Origin: an uncultured SAR86 cluster bacterium
GTDB lineage: Bacteria; Pseudomonadota; Gammaproteobacteria; Magnimaribacterales; D2472
DNA length: 64,000 bases
Assembly: GCA_902518715.1 (NCBI GenBank)
Contig: CABYHU010000001.1
Coordinates: forward strand, 124,001 to 188,000
Reading direction: 5' to 3'
Shown: piece by piece, positions 5,194-40,572 of the stretch
Position numbering within the stretch: the stretch's first letter is position 1
Layout: the number at the start of each line of letters is the position of its first letter
Notes under the pieces: model-generated
Databases searched by the model: none
The model's input: the letters and a program-made list of their open reading frames with translations, nothing else
What the model was told of the DNA's origin: nothing
Program-made: the position numbers and the translations under genes

Positions 5194-6105
5194 ATGAAGC
5201 TAAAATATCTATGTTTGATATTTTTTATTAGCTCCTGCGGTGGTGGAGGTTCATCAGCAGTTTTAGTTCCTGATATTCAGCCTCCAACAAATTCGTATCA
5301 GGCAACTACATGCCTTAATTATGATGGCCCTACAGATAAGATAATTTGGATTGATGATTTTCTAGAGCTTTCATATCTCGATAATTGGTCACCAATGCTT
5401 GGTAATGGAGCTGAATATGGCATTCCAGGTTGGGGTAATAATGAAAGGCAGTTTTATACAGATGATGTTAAAAATTCCAATATTATTAATGGATGTTTAA
5501 GAATTACTCCATTAAATGAATCAAAGGAAGGATTTAACTATACATCGGCAAAACTTATAACTGAGAACAAAGTAGATTTTACACATCCAGGGAAAATAAC
5601 AGTAAGATTTAAATCTCCTGAGGGTGTTGGTATGTGGCCTGCAATCTGGATGTTGCCATCTGAATCCATTTTTGGTGGATGGCCTGCTAGTGGGGAAATA
5701 GATCTTGTTGAAGTACGAGGCGATAATATGCAGGAAATTTTATCTACAGTTCATTACGGTGCAGATCCTGCAAATCACAAATATCAAGGTGGGACCTATC
5801 TTTTAAGTCAATCTAATAACTTAAATGAGGTATTTCATGAGCTTGCTTTTATTTGGGAAGAGAATTCTATGCAATTTATTCTTGATAATGAATATACCGT
5901 ATTTGAAATAACTTCTAACCAGATAGGTTTTGGAGAGAATTATCCATTTAATGAAGTTTTTTATTTGATAATAAATGTTGCAGTTGGTGGGAATTTTGTT
6001 GGTAATTACGTCAATAATAATGACCTTTGTTATGCGGCTAATGCAGCTAGTTGTCCTGATGATAAGAGATTTCTTATAGATTGGGTAAAATATGAAACGC
6101 TTTAA
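5194..6105 (+). CDS. Glycoside hydrolase family 16 lipoprotein (laminarinase/beta-glucanase-like)
   Basis: Lipobox ISSCGGGGSS; GH16 catalytic signature GEIDLVEVRG; MWPAIWMLP; C-terminal NVAVGGNFVG. Confidence 0.92.
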   Translation: MKLKYLCLIFFISSCGGGGSSAVLVPDIQPPTNSYQATTCLNYDGPTDKIIWIDDFLELSYLDNWSPMLGNGAEYGIPGWGNNERQFYTDDVKNSNIINGCLRITPLNESKEGFNYTSAKLITENKVDFTHPGKITVRFKSPEGVGMWPAIWMLPSESIFGGWPASGEIDLVEVRGDNMQEILSTVHYGADPANHKYQGGTYLLSQSNNLNEVFHELAFIWEENSMQFILDNEYTVFEITSNQIGFGENYPFNEVFYLIINVAVGGNFVGNYVNNNDLCYAANAASCPDDKRFLIDWVKYETL

Positions 6106-6154: not shown

Positions 6155-9100
6155 ATGTACCGCCATCTATATATATATTTTTCTTTATTATTTATCATTG
6201 CAAGTTGTGGCGGCGGTGGTGGTGGAGGAAGTACTCCTGAACCTCCAGTTCCAGGTGCAAGTATTACATTATCAATTTCTGATAATCAGATATATTTAGG
6301 TAATACAGTAACTCTAACTTGGACAACATCTAATGCATCTTCTTGCACAGCTTCAGGATCTTGGTCTGGCTCAAAAGCCTTATCAGGTTCCGAAACTATT
6401 ACGCCAGATTCAGAAGGTCAAAAAAGCTATACTTTAACTTGCTCTAATTCAGCAGGCACTTCAACGTCTAGAACAGTATCAACTAATGTTATTGGAAATT
6501 CCCAAGGTGTTGTAGTCGGTGCTAATTATATTTCTTCACCAACAGTAATTTTAGATATAAATTCAAACTACCAATCAGATGACGATGAACCATCAACTTC
6601 AGCAGATACTAATGGTATTTTCGAGCTACCTAATGACCCTCAAGATATTATTTCTTTTGGTGGTTCTGATAATTCATCTGGAGTTGACTTAACAAATCTA
6701 TCACTTTCTTATAAAGCATCATCAAGTACTTCGAGGGTTGTTTCGGCTCTAACATCACTAGACTATGCAAATACTGGAAGCACAGATATAAATACTCTAT
6801 TGAATTTAGATTCAAGTATTGATATTTACTCTGATAATCCAGTAACCGGAGTAAATTCAAGTTCAGCTGCAAATAAATACTATGAAGCAAATGCTCAGAT
6901 TTTTGTATTAGCATATGCTTTGCAAGCTTTTGTTAATGAAACAAACACATCATCAAACAATACAAAAACCTTTTTTGAAAGCTTGTATACATCTATTCAA
7001 CAAAATTTTGATTCAGGAGTCATTAATTTATCTGAGTTTATAGAAACAAGTAGCTTTATCGATGGATATATTGATAGTGTACTTAGCGCAAATAATATTT
7101 CTTTAAGTTCTTCAGCGTCGGATGATATTTCAAGTTCTGTATCAAGTGATCTTAAGTCTATTGTTAAATCAGTTGTAGAGAAGATATCTGTAAGAAATGA
7201 TTCCACTGCTACATCTGCAATCACTAATTATGCAACAGGTACTTTTTTAAATGATGTTATTGCATTAGCAAATGGAACAGCTGATGCAGTTCGAATTGCT
7301 TCTTATTCATCAAATTTAAATTCGCTTATTGCATCAGACCAAAATATTGATGAATCAAGTCTTGATCAAGTCTTAACGTTAACTGATGACTCAGTTTCAA
7401 CTGACGAAGATAACAGCTTAGAACTTACACCTTTAGAAAATGATGTTATTGATGCTGGAAGTGACTATTATGGATTATCTGTATCAATTTCTTCTCCATC
7501 AAATGGAACTGCATCACTAGATGCGACTAATAACATTACTTATTCACCAAATGAAAACTATTTTGGTTCTGATTCATTTACATACACAGTTAATATAGAT
7601 GGCACATCTGCATCAGCAAATATTGATGTTGATGTTATTAGTGTAAATGATCCGCCAATTTTTAAAGATTTTATTTCCACATCATCAATTGATGAAAATA
7701 TATTAAATGTTTTATCAGTAACTGTTGAAGATATTGAAAATGATGTTATTGGATATTCTTTATCAGGAAATGATGCGGAAAAACTTTCTATTTCAACTTC
7801 TGGCGCAATTACTTTTAAAACAAATCCAGATTTTGAAAATCCAGCAGATGCTAACTCAGATAACTCATATGAAATAACCGTTGAAGCTTCAGATGGAACA
7901 GATACTGTTAGCGACGATCTTGTTATAACAATTTTAAATGTGGAGAATGAGGGTAATCCAATTATTGAGGGTTTATCCTCTCAATCTGTTGATGAAAACG
8001 AATCTATTGGCATTTCATTTACAGTAACTGATCCACAAAATGACACAATAACTTACTCACTAAGTGGGGTAGATAAAGATTTATTTACATTAACTTTTGA
8101 TGGATTAAATGCATCGTTGACGTCATCTAGTAAAGATTATGAATTACCAGAAGATTCAGATTCAAATAATGTTTATCTGGTAAGTGTTAATTTTAGCGAC
8201 GAGTTAAATACAACATCTCAAGAGGTAGAAGTATCAATAAATAATACTAATGATAACGACCCAGTGCTTACTTCTAGTGAATCATTTACTGTTCCTGAAA
8301 ATCAACAGGCAGTTACCACACTTACCGCTACAGATGCTGATAATGATGATCTAACTTTTTCAATAAGTGGAGGCGATTCCTCTGATCTTGAAATTACAAA
8401 TTCAGGAATTTTAACGCTAAAAAGTAGTGCTAATTTTGAAGTTAAAAATAGTTATTCTCTTATTGCTATGGTAACAGATGGTATTAATAGCTCTTCTTCA
8501 TCAATTACAGTAAATATTTCTGATGTTAACGAACCTCCTGTATGGAATAATGCACTACAAACCGTTTTTGATTATCCTGAAAATACCACTGCAGTAGAAA
8601 CAATTGATATACCTGAAGATATAGCTGATGAAGATGGAGATGCATTGTCATACTCATTATCTGGAACAGATGGATCTTTATTTTCAATTTCAGGAAATGC
8701 AGTATCTTTTGTAGGAGCCCCTGATTATGAAAATCCATCTGATACAAATGGTGACAATATTTACAATTTAAATGTCATTGCTTCAGATGGTGAATTGTCA
8801 GCAACATCGCCAGAATTCACTCTCACGATAACTAACTTAAATGATAACGCCCCAACATTTGTTGATTTGGCTACAAATATAGAGGTAACAAATGGTCAAT
8901 CTAATGTTGTAGATATATCAACAATTGATGCTGATGGCGATGATGTAACTTTGTCTAAAAGCGGAATAGACAGTTCTTTATTTACCATCTCTGATTCTGG
9001 AAACTTATCATTTGCTTCAGCTCCTGACTTTGCAAATCCTGGTGATAGCAATGGGGATAATATTTATAAATTAAATGTATCAGTATCTGATGGATCATTT

Positions 9101-12100
9101 ACAACTACAAGTGATGAAATAAGTATCACGGTTCTCGAAGTAAATAATCCACCAGTCATAAGTGATTTACAAACATCCTATACTTTAGATGAAAATATTG
9201 CTGAAATTGCAACTTTCTCAGTAACAGATCCTGAAAGCAATCAACTTACCATAGGCGTAAGCGGTGATGATTCAGCTGGCTTTAGTGTTGTTAGCAATTT
9301 ATTGTATTTTGAGGGTGGACTGAATTATGAAAGTCCATCAGACTCAGATGGAGATAATGTTTATACGATAACTGTTTTTGCTGACGATGGTTTCAATAGA
9401 ACTACACAGGATGTTCAAATTACTGTTACAGATGTTCCCGAAGCTCCTGAATTTGTAGGTTTAACATCTCAAGTTTCTGTTGATGAAAATGTAAGAATTG
9501 TTGCGGCACTCAATGTGGTCGATCCAGAAGGCGGCCCTGTAACATTTGGAATTAATGGTGGTGATGATTCAGCCTTATTCAGAATTTTTAGCATTGATAG
9601 TTCAAATGGAAATTTAGCTTTTAATGCTTTTGAAGGTGTTGATTATGAAACACCTGAGGATGCAAATGGTGATAATGTATATGAGGTTCAGCTTATTGCT
9701 GCTGAAGATGCTGCAGGAGGTCTTGAAACCACATTCGATTTATCAATCACAATTAATGACATAAAAGATACTTATACAATTAATGGAACACTATACTCTA
9801 ATAGATATACCGAAGTTGATGGCGATGTACAAAATACATTGAAATATACTGTAAGAGATAACAATTCACTATCAAATGCTCAAGTTCTTCAAAATCCAAC
9901 TGATGTAATTGGACATATTGGTGATAATACAGTTGATATCGTTATTGTAGAGAATGGTTTCTGTTTTGATAATGATGATGACGGAGCGTGTGATACTCAA
10001 ACACTCGAAAATTTTGATACTGAAGATTGGTACAAAGTTACTGCTGCTCCAAATTTAACAGTTACTTTACAAAATGAAGGTCTCATATATGAAGATCTAC
10101 CAGATAATCCAGGCTCCTTTTATTGTTGTGAATATGACAGTATGGATTTAGATTTACTTCTTTATAATGAAGATGGTTCACTAGCGAATTACTCATATAC
10201 AGATTCTTCTACATCAACTAGAAAAATTATTGCACTACCAGATTCGGGTACTTATTATGCTGTTGTAAAAGCTAACTCAGGTCATGCAAAGTATGTCTTG
10301 ACATTTGGATCTAACGTTGAAGGTGCCTCAGCTGCATATTTCAACCCTGATGATAATTTTGCAAAAGATAGATTTATTTCCTATATTCCATTTGGACCTG
10401 AATTTGTTGCAAATGGTAATGAAACATATCCTGTAGATATTTATCCAGATTCAGACATAGCAACAAAATTTATTCAAGCAGATCAAGATGATAGGAAAGG
10501 CTTGAGGAGATTTAATCTTTCAGTTGAATCCGAATTTAGAAGAATATTTGGTGAGAGTCATCTTGATAATATTCAAGGAAATCCAGAACAAGTTGAGTAT
10601 TTAAAACATTGGAAAGTCTTACAACATTATAAAGATCTCCATCCAAGACTTAATCTAGAGCTTGATTTAAAAGCTAAACTTACAAACTTCACAAGAGATC
10701 CTAGGTGGAATCTTCAGTGGAATCTACAGCAAATTGGTCTAGAAACTGCATTGACTGCAATAGGTCAAGGAACTAAGGATGTTGCTGTGGCTGTTCTTGA
10801 TGGAGGAGGTCCTTTAGCTGACACTACAGCTGATACAACTTCCGCTTTCTTACCTGGAGGTTTTGACTTTGTAGATTTCGATAATGATCCTACAGATCCA
10901 CAGTCATCAAGTGGATCACATGGTATTCATGTAGGATCTACTATTGCAGCTCTAAATGATGGTAATAATATTAATGGATTTGGAATAGGGGTTGTTTCAA
11001 TGCGTGTTATGGGCACAAGTGGAACTGGATTTACCAGTGATATTATACAAGGGTTGCTTTTTGCTGGAGGTCTTCCAAACTCGACCGGTTCAGTCTATCA
11101 AGGTGCCACACCTATCAAAGTTATGAACCTAAGTCTTGGAAGTACAGGAGGAGGTTGTTCAAATTCTTATCAAGGTGTATTCAATGATCTATATGATAGA
11201 AATATATCTGTAGTTTCATCATCTGGTAATGAAGCACAAGAAGCTCCTGGAGTTTATGGATATCCTGCATCATGTGAAAATGTTATTTCAGTTGCAGCGA
11301 CTGCTGCCACAGGCTTAAGAGCATATTATTCTACATATAATGATGCAGTTGATATTGCAGCTCCTGGAGGCGATGTTGGTGCTGATGTGAATGCAGATGG
11401 CTATAGTGATGGTGTTTTAGCTTTCGATTCTGATGAGGATTTAGCATTTTATCAGGGAACATCTATGGCATCACCACATGTAGCTGGAGCAATTGGTATT
11501 CTTTATGCACTGGTACCAGAGTTATTAGCATCTCAAGTTGATGCGTTAATCATAGATGGTCATTTAGTTGACGATATTGGCCCAGAAGGTAAAGATGATG
11601 ATTATGGTTATGGTCTCTTGAATATTAATAAGGCTGTCGCAAGAATTATTGATGAAGAAGGCTTAGACTTTACTTATGGTTCAATTGATCCAGGTACAGC
11701 AAATCTTGGTCTTGAGTTTAATTCCTATGATATTACTGTCACTAAGGTTGGTGAAGGTGAGTTATCAGTATCAAGCATTACTAATGATTTACCCTCTGCT
11801 GTAACAATTTCAGAGATTGATGTTGACGAGAGTGGTTTTGGAACATACAGGCTTACTTTTGACAGATCATCACTTCCTGATGGTCTTTATAGAACAAATA
11901 CAAGAGTTACTTTTTCAAATGAAAATATACAGTCATCAGTTGCTACTTTCCAAGTTGGACCTGAAAGAGATAGACCATATGTTGAATTTGTATCTACTTA
12001 TTTATATCAAGTTGATGAAGTGGGAGGAACTATTTCGCTTGTATTTGGTAATGATGGTGAAATGGTGGATGGCGAAGTAGCATTTACAGCTGAAAATCTT

Positions 12101-12352
12101 CCAGATGGTCAATATTATTTTAGTTACTTTAGTTTTATTGACAATTTTATTAGAGATGTTGGAGAGTTTGAAGCTAGGTATCCTGATGCGGGAAGCGGAC
12201 TCCAGTATATGAATTTAGCTGGATCTGATTTGAGCACATCTGTTACTTTAGGTGTTAATAAATCAGCCTCTTTTAACTCACTTAACACAAACAACAATAA
12301 GAAAAAATACAGAGTTTATAAAATAAATCCACCAATTAAAAAAGATAATTAA
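6155..12352 (+). CDS. Giant (2065 aa) lipoprotein: Ig-like domain, cadherin/tandem-95-like repeats, PPC-like domain and subtilisin-like S8 peptidase domain
   Basis: Lipobox ASCGGGGGGG; repeated DYENPxDxNGDNxY motif; S8 triad context VAVLDGGG, SGSHGIHVGSTIAA, GTSMASPHVAGA. Confidence 0.9.
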   Translation: MYRHLYIYFSLLFIIASCGGGGGGGSTPEPPVPGASITLSISDNQIYLGNTVTLTWTTSNASSCTASGSWSGSKALSGSETITPDSEGQKSYTLTCSNSAGTSTSRTVSTNVIGNSQGVVVGANYISSPTVILDINSNYQSDDDEPSTSADTNGIFELPNDPQDIISFGGSDNSSGVDLTNLSLSYKASSSTSRVVSALTSLDYANTGSTDINTLLNLDSSIDIYSDNPVTGVNSSSAANKYYEANAQIFVLAYALQAFVNETNTSSNNTKTFFESLYTSIQQNFDSGVINLSEFIETSSFIDGYIDSVLSANNISLSSSASDDISSSVSSDLKSIVKSVVEKISVRNDSTATSAITNYATGTFLNDVIALANGTADAVRIASYSSNLNSLIASDQNIDESSLDQVLTLTDDSVSTDEDNSLELTPLENDVIDAGSDYYGLSVSISSPSNGTASLDATNNITYSPNENYFGSDSFTYTVNIDGTSASANIDVDVISVNDPPIFKDFISTSSIDENILNVLSVTVEDIENDVIGYSLSGNDAEKLSISTSGAITFKTNPDFENPADANSDNSYEITVEASDGTDTVSDDLVITILNVENEGNPIIEGLSSQSVDENESIGISFTVTDPQNDTITYSLSGVDKDLFTLTFDGLNASLTSSSKDYELPEDSDSNNVYLVSVNFSDELNTTSQEVEVSINNTNDNDPVLTSSESFTVPENQQAVTTLTATDADNDDLTFSISGGDSSDLEITNSGILTLKSSANFEVKNSYSLIAMVTDGINSSSSSITVNISDVNEPPVWNNALQTVFDYPENTTAVETIDIPEDIADEDGDALSYSLSGTDGSLFSISGNAVSFVGAPDYENPSDTNGDNIYNLNVIASDGELSATSPEFTLTITNLNDNAPTFVDLATNIEVTNGQSNVVDISTIDADGDDVTLSKSGIDSSLFTISDSGNLSFASAPDFANPGDSNGDNIYKLNVSVSDGSFTTTSDEISITVLEVNNPPVISDLQTSYTLDENIAEIATFSVTDPESNQLTIGVSGDDSAGFSVVSNLLYFEGGLNYESPSDSDGDNVYTITVFADDGFNRTTQDVQITVTDVPEAPEFVGLTSQVSVDENVRIVAALNVVDPEGGPVTFGINGGDDSALFRIFSIDSSNGNLAFNAFEGVDYETPEDANGDNVYEVQLIAAEDAAGGLETTFDLSITINDIKDTYTINGTLYSNRYTEVDGDVQNTLKYTVRDNNSLSNAQVLQNPTDVIGHIGDNTVDIVIVENGFCFDNDDDGACDTQTLENFDTEDWYKVTAAPNLTVTLQNEGLIYEDLPDNPGSFYCCEYDSMDLDLLLYNEDGSLANYSYTDSSTSTRKIIALPDSGTYYAVVKANSGHAKYVLTFGSNVEGASAAYFNPDDNFAKDRFISYIPFGPEFVANGNETYPVDIYPDSDIATKFIQADQDDRKGLRRFNLSVESEFRRIFGESHLDNIQGNPEQVEYLKHWKVLQHYKDLHPRLNLELDLKAKLTNFTRDPRWNLQWNLQQIGLETALTAIGQGTKDVAVAVLDGGGPLADTTADTTSAFLPGGFDFVDFDNDPTDPQSSSGSHGIHVGSTIAALNDGNNINGFGIGVVSMRVMGTSGTGFTSDIIQGLLFAGGLPNSTGSVYQGATPIKVMNLSLGSTGGGCSNSYQGVFNDLYDRNISVVSSSGNEAQEAPGVYGYPASCENVISVAATAATGLRAYYSTYNDAVDIAAPGGDVGADVNADGYSDGVLAFDSDEDLAFYQGTSMASPHVAGAIGILYALVPELLASQVDALIIDGHLVDDIGPEGKDDDYGYGLLNINKAVARIIDEEGLDFTYGSIDPGTANLGLEFNSYDITVTKVGEGELSVSSITNDLPSAVTISEIDVDESGFGTYRLTFDRSSLPDGLYRTNTRVTFSNENIQSSVATFQVGPERDRPYVEFVSTYLYQVDEVGGTISLVFGNDGEMVDGEVAFTAENLPDGQYYFSYFSFIDNFIRDVGEFEARYPDAGSGLQYMNLAGSDLSTSVTLGVNKSASFNSLNTNNNKKKYRVYKINPPIKKDN
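7829..9700 (+). repeat. Cadherin-like protein repeat units with about 300 bp period, within the S8 lipoprotein gene
   Basis: Six copies of (D/N)(Y/F)(E/A)xPxDxxxDNxY near 7829, 8134, 8723, 9026, 9323, 9641; a degenerate unit near 8430. Confidence 0.8.
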
Positions 12353-14478
12353 ATTTGATTATTTAAGATATTTAAAATAAAAGAATAATCAAGAGCAGTT
12401 TCATTTAAAGACTCTAATCTTCCGCTTTTTCCTCCATGCCCACCTACAAGATTAATATTTAAGAAAACTGGATTATTTGAAGTACTAAATTCTCTTAGTT
12501 TAGGTACATATTTTGCAGGTTCAAAGTATTGAACCTGGGAATCATATAAACTTGTGGTGACTAGAACAGCAGGATAATTCTGTTTCTTAATATTGTCATA
12601 GGGTGAATATGTTTTCATATAAAAATATTCATCTTTATTTGCTGGATTTCCCCACTCATCATATTCAAATGTTGTTAAAGGAATGGACTCATCTGACATT
12701 GTTGTAAGAACATCAACGAATGGAACAGCACTTACAATTCCTGAATATAGTTCTGGTTCATAATTTATAACAGCACCCATCAGTAAGCCACCAGCACTTC
12801 CTCCCATAGCAAAGATTTTATCTTTATGTCCGATATTATTTTTAGTAAGAAATTTAGTAGCATCTATAAAATCATAAAATGTATTATTTTTATTGAGCAT
12901 TCGACCATCTTCGTACCAATATCTTCCCATATCAGCACCACCTCTTATTTGAGCAATAGCGAATATAAAACCTCGATTTAAAAGTGGTGCGATAGTTGAT
13001 CTAAAACCTGAATCCATATTAATTCCATATGATCCATATCCATAAATTAACATAGGTGCATTTTTAAGATCTAAGCCTTTTTTATAAACAATTGAAACAG
13101 GCACATTAGTATCATCTCTTGCAAGTGTCTTGATTCTCTTTATTTCATAATCAGTATCTATAAAGTTATTTACTTGTTTTTTCCATATGACGTTATTGGT
13201 GTTGTCATACAAATCATATTTTAATATTTGAGGTGAGGTTTTTAATGATGAGTAAGAATATCTAAAGAAGCTTGAATCAAAATTATTGTTATAAACTAAA
13301 CCCAGATCATATACCTCATCCTTCATATCGATTTGATTAAGGGAATTATTAGCGAAGTTAAAGACTTCAATTATTGGTATGCCATCATATCTAGATTGAA
13401 TAACTATAAATTCATTAAAAGTTAACATATCCTCAATATAGTGAGTATCTCGAACTTCAATAACATCTTCCCAATTATTAATATTTTGAAAATCATCTTT
13501 TTCTAAGCGCATTACTTTAAAGTTTTTTGAATCATCATAGTTTGAAAGGGCATAAAAATAATCACCGCCATCCTCAATTGAATAAAGATGATTCTCTGAT
13601 CTCTTTAAAACCAATTCAAGATTTCCTAGAGGATTATCTTTATCTAAAAGCCATACTTCACTTGAATCTGTTTTTTCTATATATATGTAAATATATTTTT
13701 TTGTTCTAGATTCTGATAGCCAGATATTAAATTCATTATCATCTTCTTTATAAATTAATTTATCTTCAGATTGATCAGTACCTATCTCATGAACATATAT
13801 TTGATTTTGTATAAGTGTCTCCTCATCCTTTTTTGCATACACAATATATTTTGAATCACTAGACCATATAGCATTAGGAGATACTTTTACTATCTCATCA
13901 TCGAGTAATTTATTTTTATGTAAATCTTTTATTCGTAATGTGTATTCTCGTCTTCCAGTGAAATCTTCTCCGTAAATCAATAAGTTCTCATCCGGAGAAA
14001 TATTTAAGCCTGCCACACTGTAAAATTCTCGTCCGATAGCTTCATTATTTGCATCAAGAAGCACCTCCTCATTTGCATTATTTCGAAAGTAGGTTGAATA
14101 TTGTTGATCAGCTTTAATCCTGCTGTAGTAAAAATATGACCCATCCTTAACCCTGAGTGTTTCCTCTTCAGATGGGATCATTTTTTTTAGTTCATTAAAA
14201 ATTTCACTTTGATAGTCAATATGTTCGTCTCTCCATTTTTTAAAATATTCATTTTCTGATTCTAAATAACTAATCAATTCTTGATCTGATCTTGAATCAT
14301 CTCTCATCCAATAGTAGTTATCTATTCTTAAATCTCCATGTGCCTTAAGTTCGTATGGGATTTTTTTTGGATTTGGAGGTGTGTTCGAAGTCATAGGAAT
14401 GCAGCCTGATAAAATAATTATAGATAATAAAATATTTAAATATTTATTCATATAGGAAATTACAAAGAATACTATCAT
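12349..14478 (-). CDS. S9 family prolyl oligopeptidase / oligopeptidase B-like, lipoprotein-type N-terminus
   Basis: YYWMRDD, GYGSYG, RGGADMGRYWYEDGR, GGSAGGLLMGA nucleophile elbow, GGHGGKSGR; N-terminal IIILSGC lipobox. Confidence 0.92.
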   Translation of the reverse strand: MIVFFVISYMNKYLNILLSIIILSGCIPMTSNTPPNPKKIPYELKAHGDLRIDNYYWMRDDSRSDQELISYLESENEYFKKWRDEHIDYQSEIFNELKKMIPSEEETLRVKDGSYFYYSRIKADQQYSTYFRNNANEEVLLDANNEAIGREFYSVAGLNISPDENLLIYGEDFTGRREYTLRIKDLHKNKLLDDEIVKVSPNAIWSSDSKYIVYAKKDEETLIQNQIYVHEIGTDQSEDKLIYKEDDNEFNIWLSESRTKKYIYIYIEKTDSSEVWLLDKDNPLGNLELVLKRSENHLYSIEDGGDYFYALSNYDDSKNFKVMRLEKDDFQNINNWEDVIEVRDTHYIEDMLTFNEFIVIQSRYDGIPIIEVFNFANNSLNQIDMKDEVYDLGLVYNNNFDSSFFRYSYSSLKTSPQILKYDLYDNTNNVIWKKQVNNFIDTDYEIKRIKTLARDDTNVPVSIVYKKGLDLKNAPMLIYGYGSYGINMDSGFRSTIAPLLNRGFIFAIAQIRGGADMGRYWYEDGRMLNKNNTFYDFIDATKFLTKNNIGHKDKIFAMGGSAGGLLMGAVINYEPELYSGIVSAVPFVDVLTTMSDESIPLTTFEYDEWGNPANKDEYFYMKTYSPYDNIKKQNYPAVLVTTSLYDSQVQYFEPAKYVPKLREFSTSNNPVFLNINLVGGHGGKSGRLESLNETALDYSFILNILNNQI

Positions 14479-37926: not shown

Positions 37927-40572
37927 ATGAAAAATAATTCAATACAATTTTTGCTTCTATCAATATTTCTAGCATCTTGCGGCGGCGGAGGCGGTGGTTC
38001 GAGTCTAGAACTTACCGTTCAACAATTTAACTCTTTTTCAGTAAATGAAGATGACATCTATGAAACTATTATTTCATCCTCTACAAATAAGCCAGCTACT
38101 ATTACATATACCATATCTAAACCCTCAGCTAATGCTAATGTATCCATATCTAATTCAGGAGCTTTGTTCTATTCGCCTAAACCTAATTATTTTGGCAATG
38201 ACACATTTTCAATTACCGTTATAGCAACCCCAGAAGGACAAACTGGATCATATGAAAGCAGAACGTTAAATGTTAACGCTAATGTAATATCGGTTAATGA
38301 TCCACCAACAATAATAGTTAATGATGATCTATCTTCATATAATGAAAGCACACTAATTTTTGATGATATTTTGTCTTTAAATGTAACTATAACTGACGTA
38401 GATAATTCTCTCAGCCAAATTTCCGTTTATGGATCTATTGATGGAAGATCTTTTGATGGTTCATTTACCGAAGATTTATTAATTCCTGGATCCGGAACAG
38501 CAGATATAAATGTTTCTTCTAATCAATTAGCTGGTTTTCAGAAAATGGATATTTGTGTTTCAGATGGAACTGATTCTGTATGTGGTGGCGAGCTGGAAGC
38601 ATACTTTTTAGCAAATAGAGAAATAAAAACAATAGATTATTGCGATAGTACTGGAAATAATTGTAGTGTTAGCGATCAATACGTTTATTACCTGGTTGGT
38701 GGTGAAAATACTGATGCAAGAACAAATTATTTATTTATTGGTGATCAGCTAACTGGAGAAGGTCAAAGAGATTCCTTTCATGAGGCACTTCTTTCTTCAG
38801 TAAATCTACTTGTAAGTTCTGATGCAGCAGATTTAGTTAATGGTTATTTTAATATTATGGTACTCGAAGAAGTTGATCTTACCGGCGTATCATTGTTCGA
38901 TATAAGGACTGGATGTTATTCATTTGATGCAAATATTTATTGTATTGGAGAAGTTGATAGAAACTTTATGACTGATGTTGTTCCAGGTTGGACAGTAACC
39001 TCATTTTTAACAACCCTTGGTGGAAGGGGTGTTGCACAAGGTTCGGTAAATATTCAACCTATTTCTAGCAGATCAAGGAATGTTGTTATGCATGAGTTAG
39101 GTCACTCACATGGTTATATGGGTGATGAATACGATTCAGGAGGTGAAAGGACTGCTGGTAGCGAATGGTGGGGTGACTGGAGTATCAATACAACCACTGT
39201 AGTTAATCCAAACTTAGTTAAATGGAAACATCATATTGATTTTGATAATCCTATTCCTGGAATTGAATATGATACTTGTTATAACTACCCAAATGCTGGA
39301 ATCTATTACAGAGATCTTGACACACCTGGTGTACCAGATCAGCAGGATAATGTACTCGGTTATGATGATTGTGAATGTTTTATGAATCAGTGGCAAAACA
39401 CTGATGAAGATGCTCCGTATTATTTTACAACTGATGATTGGCCTGATGCAGATTTTGAAAGACTTGGTGAAAACTCAGATCCTGGATGCAAAAATAGGGT
39501 TGGTCTTGTTGAAGGTATTTATTATGCAGAACAAGGAGGCTATCGACCAAAGTGGTGGACTATCATGTGGTGTTGCACGCTTGAATATGGAGAAGTAAAT
39601 CTTGAGGGTTTTGCAATAGGTTCAATAATGAATCAAGGCTTCAGAGACTATTCTATTAATGGAGAATATGGCTTTGATAATTTATCAAGTCCTAATGGCC
39701 TTGAAAATAATATTACTCTTGCTGTAGATGCAGTTTATGATCAAACAAAACTTAAATTAAAATGGTTTGTTGATGGAATTGAACAGCCAGAACATGAAAA
39801 CAAACTATCTGTAAGTTTTGATAGACCCTCTACTAATTCGTGGGTTTCATACTCATACCAAGTCGAGGACTTAACAGGAAATTTAATTGCGCCAAATGAT
39901 CCTTTAAGTCCTGTAGATTTTTATGAAGGAAATTTTGAAAGATACTATTACTATGAACCAAATCCTGAACTTACACCCATATCTTCCCTGATGCCATATA
40001 TAGGATCATTTAGATGGTACGATCCTAACTCAGGTTGGTCAACTGATGAATCTGTAAATTCCTCAAATATGGATAACTATTTATTTGCTTTATCTTGTTG
40101 CTCTATGGGCTCTACTTTCAAGATTAATTGGGCTAATTATCAGCAAACATCGGCTCAAATGTCATCATCAAATGTAGTTAAAAAATATTTTTTTGAAAGA
40201 CCTGATTCCAATGCAAATCAGAGAATATTTAATCTTAATCTTTCAAAAGATACTGTGGAGGTTATTTCAACTACTATAGAGAGACCAAATCCAGAACTTA
40301 TTAGAGAGCCAGTGATTACAAAAAGTGATATTTATGGCTTAGAGTTTTATAACACAGAAAATGAGCTTGTATACAAAGTTGGAATAGGGGATCCATTTAT
40401 GGTAAGACTGCAACATATTGATATGGTAGATGAAGAGCATTATACATTTGAGGTTCCTATATCTAACTTTAATGTCGTAATCCCAATAGATATTAATCCA
40501 AGTTACGTTTCTTTAATTAGACGAAATAATGAAAATATTTATTCAGAAGTAAGCAGATACATATTAAATTAA
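37927..40572 (+). CDS. Lipoprotein with cadherin/tandem-95-like N-terminus and M64 (IgA peptidase)-like zinc metalloprotease domain
   Basis: Lipobox ASCGGGGGGSS; NYFGNDTFSITV repeat; FIGDQLTGEGQRDSF; VVMHELGHSHGYMGDEYD zinc motif. Confidence 0.82.
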   Translation: MKNNSIQFLLLSIFLASCGGGGGGSSLELTVQQFNSFSVNEDDIYETIISSSTNKPATITYTISKPSANANVSISNSGALFYSPKPNYFGNDTFSITVIATPEGQTGSYESRTLNVNANVISVNDPPTIIVNDDLSSYNESTLIFDDILSLNVTITDVDNSLSQISVYGSIDGRSFDGSFTEDLLIPGSGTADINVSSNQLAGFQKMDICVSDGTDSVCGGELEAYFLANREIKTIDYCDSTGNNCSVSDQYVYYLVGGENTDARTNYLFIGDQLTGEGQRDSFHEALLSSVNLLVSSDAADLVNGYFNIMVLEEVDLTGVSLFDIRTGCYSFDANIYCIGEVDRNFMTDVVPGWTVTSFLTTLGGRGVAQGSVNIQPISSRSRNVVMHELGHSHGYMGDEYDSGGERTAGSEWWGDWSINTTTVVNPNLVKWKHHIDFDNPIPGIEYDTCYNYPNAGIYYRDLDTPGVPDQQDNVLGYDDCECFMNQWQNTDEDAPYYFTTDDWPDADFERLGENSDPGCKNRVGLVEGIYYAEQGGYRPKWWTIMWCCTLEYGEVNLEGFAIGSIMNQGFRDYSINGEYGFDNLSSPNGLENNITLAVDAVYDQTKLKLKWFVDGIEQPEHENKLSVSFDRPSTNSWVSYSYQVEDLTGNLIAPNDPLSPVDFYEGNFERYYYYEPNPELTPISSLMPYIGSFRWYDPNSGWSTDESVNSSNMDNYLFALSCCSMGSTFKINWANYQQTSAQMSSSNVVKKYFFERPDSNANQRIFNLNLSKDTVEVISTTIERPNPELIREPVITKSDIYGLEFYNTENELVYKVGIGDPFMVRLQHIDMVDEEHYTFEVPISNFNVVIPIDINPSYVSLIRRNNENIYSEVSRYILN

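Follow-up and report, generated by a model that had tools for sequence, protein, structure and literature searches.

The stretch of DNA analysed here (hereafter, the window) comprises 64,000 nucleotides of an uncultured SAR86 cluster bacterium and contains an intact open reading frame (ORF) at 6155–12352 on the forward strand, which encodes a 2065-aa lipoprotein with a subtilisin-type peptidase domain more than a thousand residues away from its lipid anchor. The question raised by this locus is whether such a protease works at the end of its own stalk or is parted from it. An earlier interpretation made from the letters alone (the sequence-only reading) had proposed a surface-tethered protease held on a Ca-binding stalk. 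The lipid-anchored precursor, the cadherin-type stalk, and the intact subtilisin domain of that proposal stood, but the claim that the active enzyme is held on the stalk was not supported in that form, as a cut is expected at about residue 1510. The explanation that we favour, with somewhat better than even confidence, is a lipid-anchored subtilase zymogen in which an acidic cadherin stalk of ~1200 residues lies between the anchor and the PPC domain and which would cleave itself near residue 1510. Coordinates are given as positions in the window, and residue numbers refer to the 2065-aa protein.

All the motifs quoted in the sequence-only reading were present in the ORF, the length of which was also correct. 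The order of the domains is lipobox, seven glycines, an Ig-like segment, one tandem-95/Big_9 unit, approximately seven cadherin-like units, PPC, S8, and a C-terminus of the Ig/BACON type. The lipobox IASC, with Cys18, is followed by exactly seven glycines, and the composition of the protein is strongly acidic (Asp 9.9%, Lys 2.1%). The Pfam domain search recovered both the S8 and the cadherin folds. The S8 domain (PF00082) scored 111 bits against a cut-off of 21.8 (E = 7e-32, residues 1541–1820), and the best PDB matches of this region reached E = 2.4e-30 with the single sequence and 2e-53 with a profile. The catalytic residues D1549, H1589, and S1770, as well as the oxyanion N1692, were invariant across 17 relatives. 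Judged by these matches, the domain is a peptidase S8 (subtilase) with an intact predicted active site.

In the stalk, both Cadherin (PF00028, 68.8 bits, three stretches) and Big_9 (PF17963, 76.2 bits, five stretches) exceeded the Pfam cut-offs. A loop of the DTNGDN type (DxNxDN-type) was seen in six of the seven cadherin-like units obtained by manual splitting, and the stalk probably binds Ca. The unit previously described as tandem-95-like was recovered as a Big_9 unit, while the tandem-95 model NF012211 matched residues 415–504 (E = 3e-16) with 59 bits, below its curated cut-off of 90. The PPC-like segment was confirmed: PF04151 matched residues 1291–1372 with E = 1.7e-4 and 22.5 bits, below the cut-off of 25.9, and the corresponding segment of the G002 ortholog scored 26.3 bits, over the cut-off. 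The Ig-like segment at residues 26–110 had no Pfam match, and the case for it consists of the Cys64/Cys96 pair and its recurrence in other SAR86 lipoproteins. The description of the C-terminus needed correction, since the S8 domain ends at ~1820–1832 and leaves ~233 residues rather than ~350. Nor is this part undefined, as a widespread gammaproteobacterial family has C-terminal domains that align with it.

This family was represented by A7, an alignment of stalkless gammaproteobacterial lipoprotein subtilases (e.g., L135, L136, and L142), 18 of which were scanned. The region from residue 1229 to near the C-terminus aligned with A7 over 754 columns with 100% probability and E = 1e-110 (hhalign). 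The A7 homologs are 870–960 aa long, belong to many gammaproteobacterial families, and have the order PPC, prodomain, S8, BACON; PPC and the fervidolysin-type prodomain PF22148 were each found in 13 of the 18 and BACON_2 in 9. By this alignment, residues ~1226–2065 are the core of the A7 family (lipobox–PPC–propeptide–S8–BACON). The ~1200-aa stalk appears as an addition to this core that is confined to SAR86 in the samples examined, because the matches outside SAR86 at E ≤ 1e-40 (class and phylum samples) were ORFs of only 469–1252 aa. Core matches were found in 32 of 203 SAR86 genomes, with stalked S8 ORFs of >2000 aa in genera g1 (eight), g8 (three), and g5 (G403, the copy of which ends at a contig end); G374, a g8 genome of low completeness, has a broken copy in addition. 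The core-matching ORFs of genus g13 span 861–1205 aa. In the S8-domain tree, the stalked g1 and g8 proteins grouped together (99/97), apart from g13 and the other gammaproteobacteria. A single gain of the stalk in the g1/g8 lineage would fit this tree, the root of which is arbitrary, however; a loss in g13 is also possible.

The expected cut follows from the comparison with solved subtilases. The best PDB match, 9rk9, consists of a propeptide-like chain A of 97 residues and a chain B, which is the mature enzyme starting ATPNDTYYRYQW. The first residue of 9rk9_B aligned to N1511 of the window protein, and the chains of AprV2, BprV, 5yl7, and thermitase begin at the same position. The lipid anchor, the stalk, and the PPC domain are all located N-terminally of N1511. 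A cut at ~1510 would thus separate the protease from both stalk and lipid, and the term "tethered protease" may fail for the mature enzyme. Residues 1386–1510 are a putative propeptide, assigned by position and collinearity. Few parts of the protein evolve as fast as the segment before S8, which shows 33–36% identity to genus g8 against 60–62% in S8; propeptides usually evolve fast. The segment has an intermediate form in the g5 relative L173 (...SLDKDVIFDFNYEFELASFSRDP). Intermediate forms were found in L071 (...RRKFPGYVIDLNHIYFPDADPEPFSPDP) and L173 (...KSLDKDVIFDFNYEFELASFSRDP), and an example of the form in the gammaproteobacterial family is ...ALRKRADVLYAEPNYIRQA. The gammaproteobacterial propeptide profile gave only weak matches in the PDB, the best being 9rk9_A (E = 0.014). 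On this analysis, autoprocessing near residue 1510 is probable, and the mature protease is probably cut free from the stalk rather than simply held on it.

The precursor would be exported by Sec, lipidated, and then transferred to the outer surface, probably via the type II secretion system (T2SS). An operon of the gspC–M type is present in the same genome (L088:4203–13454), as read by gene order and sequence, with the secretin over the cut-off. In Acinetobacter, the cysteine of T2SS lipoproteins is followed by a motif rich in Gly/Ser or Asn/Asp (PMC12802150), and C18-GGGGGGG-S of the window protein fits the Gly/Ser-rich version. Surface exposure of the precursor is plausible because the genome has a T2SS operon and the poly-Gly run matches this sorting motif. 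The S8 domain would then fold with the help of the propeptide and cleave itself near residue 1510, and the resulting S8–BACON part of ~60 kDa would either be released or stay bound non-covalently to the anchored propeptide, PPC, and stalk. Proteins would be degraded close to the cell, and the resulting peptides would be used with the help of two neighbours, the lipoprotein S9 peptidase and the Na/Ala-type symporter.

Several results weigh against the self-cleaving, surface-delivered zymogen. GspN is required for the T2SS lipoprotein route in Acinetobacter and Klebsiella (PMC12802150); PF01203 detected it in seven genomes from two other SAR86 families and in none of the 25 genomes of this family, the L088 operon included. 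A diverged GspN, another route, or GspN-independent T2SS export are possible. The SAR86 and gammaproteobacterial propeptide segments gave no significant profile match when compared alone (probability 0.6%), and none of the Pfam prodomain models, PF22148 included, matched the SAR86 sequences. AlphaFold runs with 3-sequence alignments yielded no usable model either for residues 1226–2065 or for propeptide plus S8 (pLDDT 28.8 and 29.5, respectively). Finally, a stalk of nearly constant length in most orthologs would be an odd investment if the enzyme simply leaves.

The cut and the conserved stalk would be reconciled if the enzyme, once cut, remained in a non-covalent complex with the anchored propeptide and PPC, its activity restrained for as long as the propeptide lasts. 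The family seems to include such complexes, since the deposited 9rk9 entry contains both a propeptide-like chain and a mature chain. Nevertheless, most subtilases eventually digest their propeptide. We consider this sub-case of the zymogen a possibility with less than even chances. It is rather unlikely, in our estimate, that the mature protease stays covalently on the outer membrane via the cadherin stalk, with residues 1386–1510 serving as a plain linker or staying uncut. In its favour, the SAR86 segment has diverged beyond the reach of the prodomain models, and the total length is near-constant, at 2052–2079 aa in nine of the ten orthologs compared (window gene counted; L064 alone is longer), which suggests that the distance from the membrane matters. 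However, the position of the segment, its collinearity with prodomain-bearing relatives, and the solved mature N-termini all place the cut at ~1510.

The stalk could also be mainly an adhesin or particle binder, with S8 as secondary cargo or as a maturation protease for the stalk and its neighbours. The N-terminal ~500 residues (~18–517) recur as a chassis on other SAR86 cadherin lipoproteins at 31–42% identity and with different C-termini, including proteins in which no protease was recognised (L090, L092, and L093; the C-terminal parts of L090 and L093 have no recognised function), one with a weak zinc-peptidase match (L094), and a kexin-type S8 with a P-domain over the cut-off (L059). Nevertheless, no adhesin-specific domain was found, and the conserved GH16 and S9 peptidase lipoproteins and the amino-acid symporter fit nutrition; we regard the adhesin explanation as improbable. 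One of these chassis-type cadherin lipoproteins is very large for a genome of ~1 Mb: L091:1–10180 encodes at least 3393 aa and ends at a contig end.

The stalk itself seems to be exchangeable. L064:3973–11979 (G016, genus g8) encodes a 2668-aa mosaic subtilase whose residues 101–1500 are closest, stepwise, to the non-protease proteins L090, L091, L093, or L094, with small margins near residue 401. From residue 1501 on, it is closest to the congeneric subtilase L068 (44–77% identity). The switch point falls among the cadherin repeats. By these comparisons, the stalk of L064 is taken from a different cadherin lipoprotein, in one draft genome, and the mosaic is a clear instance of surface proteins exchanging stalks. 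In a third genus (G403), a stalked subtilase, at least 2095 aa long, lies in tandem with another poly-Gly cadherin lipoprotein on the same strand (L173:3–11000). The two share the chassis, and their tandem order would favour stalk exchange.

A search of the genome with a Cys-Gly4 DNA pattern gave seven matches, compared with none in the control and none in shuffles of the window. Six of them are lipoproteins, among them the window S8 protein, the GH16 protein, in which no spacer was found, and a cadherin-like protein of 633 aa. The seventh, in NqrF (27510), was rejected as a ferredoxin-type Fe-S motif with no lipobox. The lipoprotein encoded at 37927–40572 (+) starts with SCGGGGGGSS and combines a Big_9 unit with an M64 (IgA peptidase) match, a design like that of the S8 protein with an unrelated peptidase family. 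At L164:346–2595, a cadherin plus esterase lipoprotein of 431 aa adjoins a 315-aa esterase relative without cadherin, a pair that is a natural test of the role of the spacer. A 317-aa poly-Gly lipoprotein (L165:750–1703) has weak Big_9 and weak GmrSD_C (HNH-type) matches and is possibly a surface nuclease. As far as such matches tell, the genome puts lipobox–polyGly–repeat modules on several unrelated hydrolases. We tentatively suggest, as an idea that may well prove wrong, that SAR86 displays unrelated hydrolases (subtilase, kexin-type S8, M64-like peptidase, esterase, and nuclease-like) on a recombining kit of anchor, poly-Gly, and cadherin spacer, that the spacers are swapped between cadherin repeats, and that the subtilase cuts itself off the anchor after delivery, being first tethered and then released.

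The same architecture, the search for which the sequence-only reading had suggested, was found in related genomes. Among the 41 relatives compared, full-length matches occurred in genus g8 and, in syntenic position, in eight of the ten congeneric genomes, with that of the window counted, each genome of the genus having one S8 gene at the Pfam threshold. The lipobox-plus-Gly start is kept in all full-length orthologs. Named contig collections contained two close relatives, both SAR86 cluster bacteria. The order symporter, GH16, S8, S9 peptidase, nfuA is syntenic in the genus, contig ends showing only part of it in L062; the Na/Ala-type symporter is a conserved neighbour, and the 3' end of the S9 gene overlaps the S8 stop codon on the opposite strand. 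That two genes were fused during metagenome or single-cell assembly has a negligible chance of being true and was rejected: the window genome is a draft (24 contigs, 85% complete), but the same architecture, uninterrupted and syntenic, recurs in g8 and in seven further congeneric genomes. The features of the locus are listed in Table 1.

Table 1. Features of the stalked subtilase gene and of its immediate neighbours.
Feature	Position in window	Strand	Basis
GH16 lipoprotein (Cys-Gly4), ending 49 bp before the S8 gene starts	5194..6105	+	Pfam; adjoins the S8 gene in 7/7 same-genus relatives examined with an ortholog
Lipoprotein signal peptide, lipobox IASC (Cys18)	6155..6208	+	Sequence; lipobox-plus-Gly start in every full-length ortholog
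Run of seven glycines following the lipobox Cys; candidate motif for T2SS lipoprotein sorting	6209..6229	+	Sequence; motif class PMC12802150; absent from shuffles
Ig-like segment, residues 26–110, Cys64/Cys96	6230..6484	+	Recurs N-terminally in other SAR86 lipoproteins
Segment 111–400 without Pfam domain, part of the N-terminal chassis	6485..7354	+	31–42% identity to other carriers
Big_9/tandem-95 unit, residues ~409–500	7379..7654	+	Big_9 over cut-off, NF012211 below cut-off
~7 cadherin-like units, residues 502–1222	7658..9820	+	Pfam Cadherin; manual split
PPC domain, residues 1291–1372	10025..10270	+	PF04151; collinear with PPC of the gammaproteobacterial family
Putative intramolecular propeptide, residues ~1386–1510	10310..10684	+	Position; end-to-end alignment of profiles with the gammaproteobacterial family
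Predicted autoprocessing site T1510/N1511 (± few residues)	10682..10687	+	First residue of 9rk9_B maps to N1511
S8 subtilisin domain, residues 1515–1832; D1549, H1589, N1692, S1770	10697..11650	+	Pfam, PDB matches, invariant triad
C-terminal region, residues 1833–2065: Ig/BACON-type domain, then second beta-rich segment	11651..12349	+	Profile alignment to A7
S9 prolyl-oligopeptidase-family protein, lipobox LSGC, convergent with the S8 gene	12349..14478	-	Pfam, sequence; synteny in the same 7 relatives

Other S8 proteins were seen around this family. Cadherin-bearing kexin-like S8 proteins are encoded at L059:3850–7590 and L054:3634–6528, in genomes of the genus where no ortholog was detected. 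That a kexin-type protein has replaced the ortholog in G001/G006 cannot be claimed, since neither a GH16 nor an NfuA ortholog was found there and the locus may be missing from these incomplete genomes. In other genera of the family, the S8 lipoproteins L063, L065, and L069 (810–833 aa) have their S8 domain close to the N-terminus, and the last residue of L063 and L065 is Phe; all three are possibly of the autotransporter type.

The window gene thus encodes a real, conserved, and unusually large precursor of a presumed surface enzyme. None of its components is new; the novelty lies in how the domains are combined, in a stalk that recombines, and in the expected cleavage, which would detach the enzyme from its anchor. 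A search by title and abstract for SAR86 together with peptidase/lipoprotein or cadherin returned nothing on this protein. SAR86 is abundant in the surface ocean and has genomes near 1 Mb, and the 6.2 kb spent on one protease suggests a pay-off from the degradation of particles or proteins. Whether such enzymes in plankton are private (tethered) or public (released) goods is a question on which this protein bears. A lipid anchor placed N-terminally, beyond the maturation cut, is a general puzzle, as many stalkless gammaproteobacterial relatives share this order.

Among known systems, the T2SS surface lipoproteins PulA and InvL share the lipobox and the T2SS, and the Acinetobacter set also shares the Gly/Ser-rich motif after the cysteine (PMC12802150), but their passenger domains are unrelated and GspN was not detected in this SAR86 family. 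The extracellular subtilases of the Dichelobacter nodosus AprV2/BprV type, 9rk9, and 5yl7 have the S8 domain and the position of the mature N-terminus in common with the SAR86 protein, whereas their solved chains are stalkless mature enzymes. The A7 lipoprotein subtilases are collinear with it from PPC to near the C-terminus and have the same catalytic residues and, in most cases, a lipobox; they differ in their smaller size, the lack of a cadherin stalk, and a recognisable prodomain ending in AEPNYIRxA, which is degenerate in SAR86. The autotransporter lipoprotein subtilases NalP and SphB1 combine an N-terminal lipid anchor and a surface S8 domain with a C-terminal beta-barrel, unlike the window protein, in which Pfam matched no beta-barrel domain. 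Lactococcal PrtP, a cell-envelope proteinase of Gram-positive bacteria, has a subtilisin domain that a long stretch of repeats keeps at a distance from the envelope, as in the SAR86 protein. Its polarity is reversed, with an N-terminal propeptide and a C-terminal anchor, so that maturation leaves PrtP anchored, whereas the cut expected in SAR86 would part the enzyme from its anchor.

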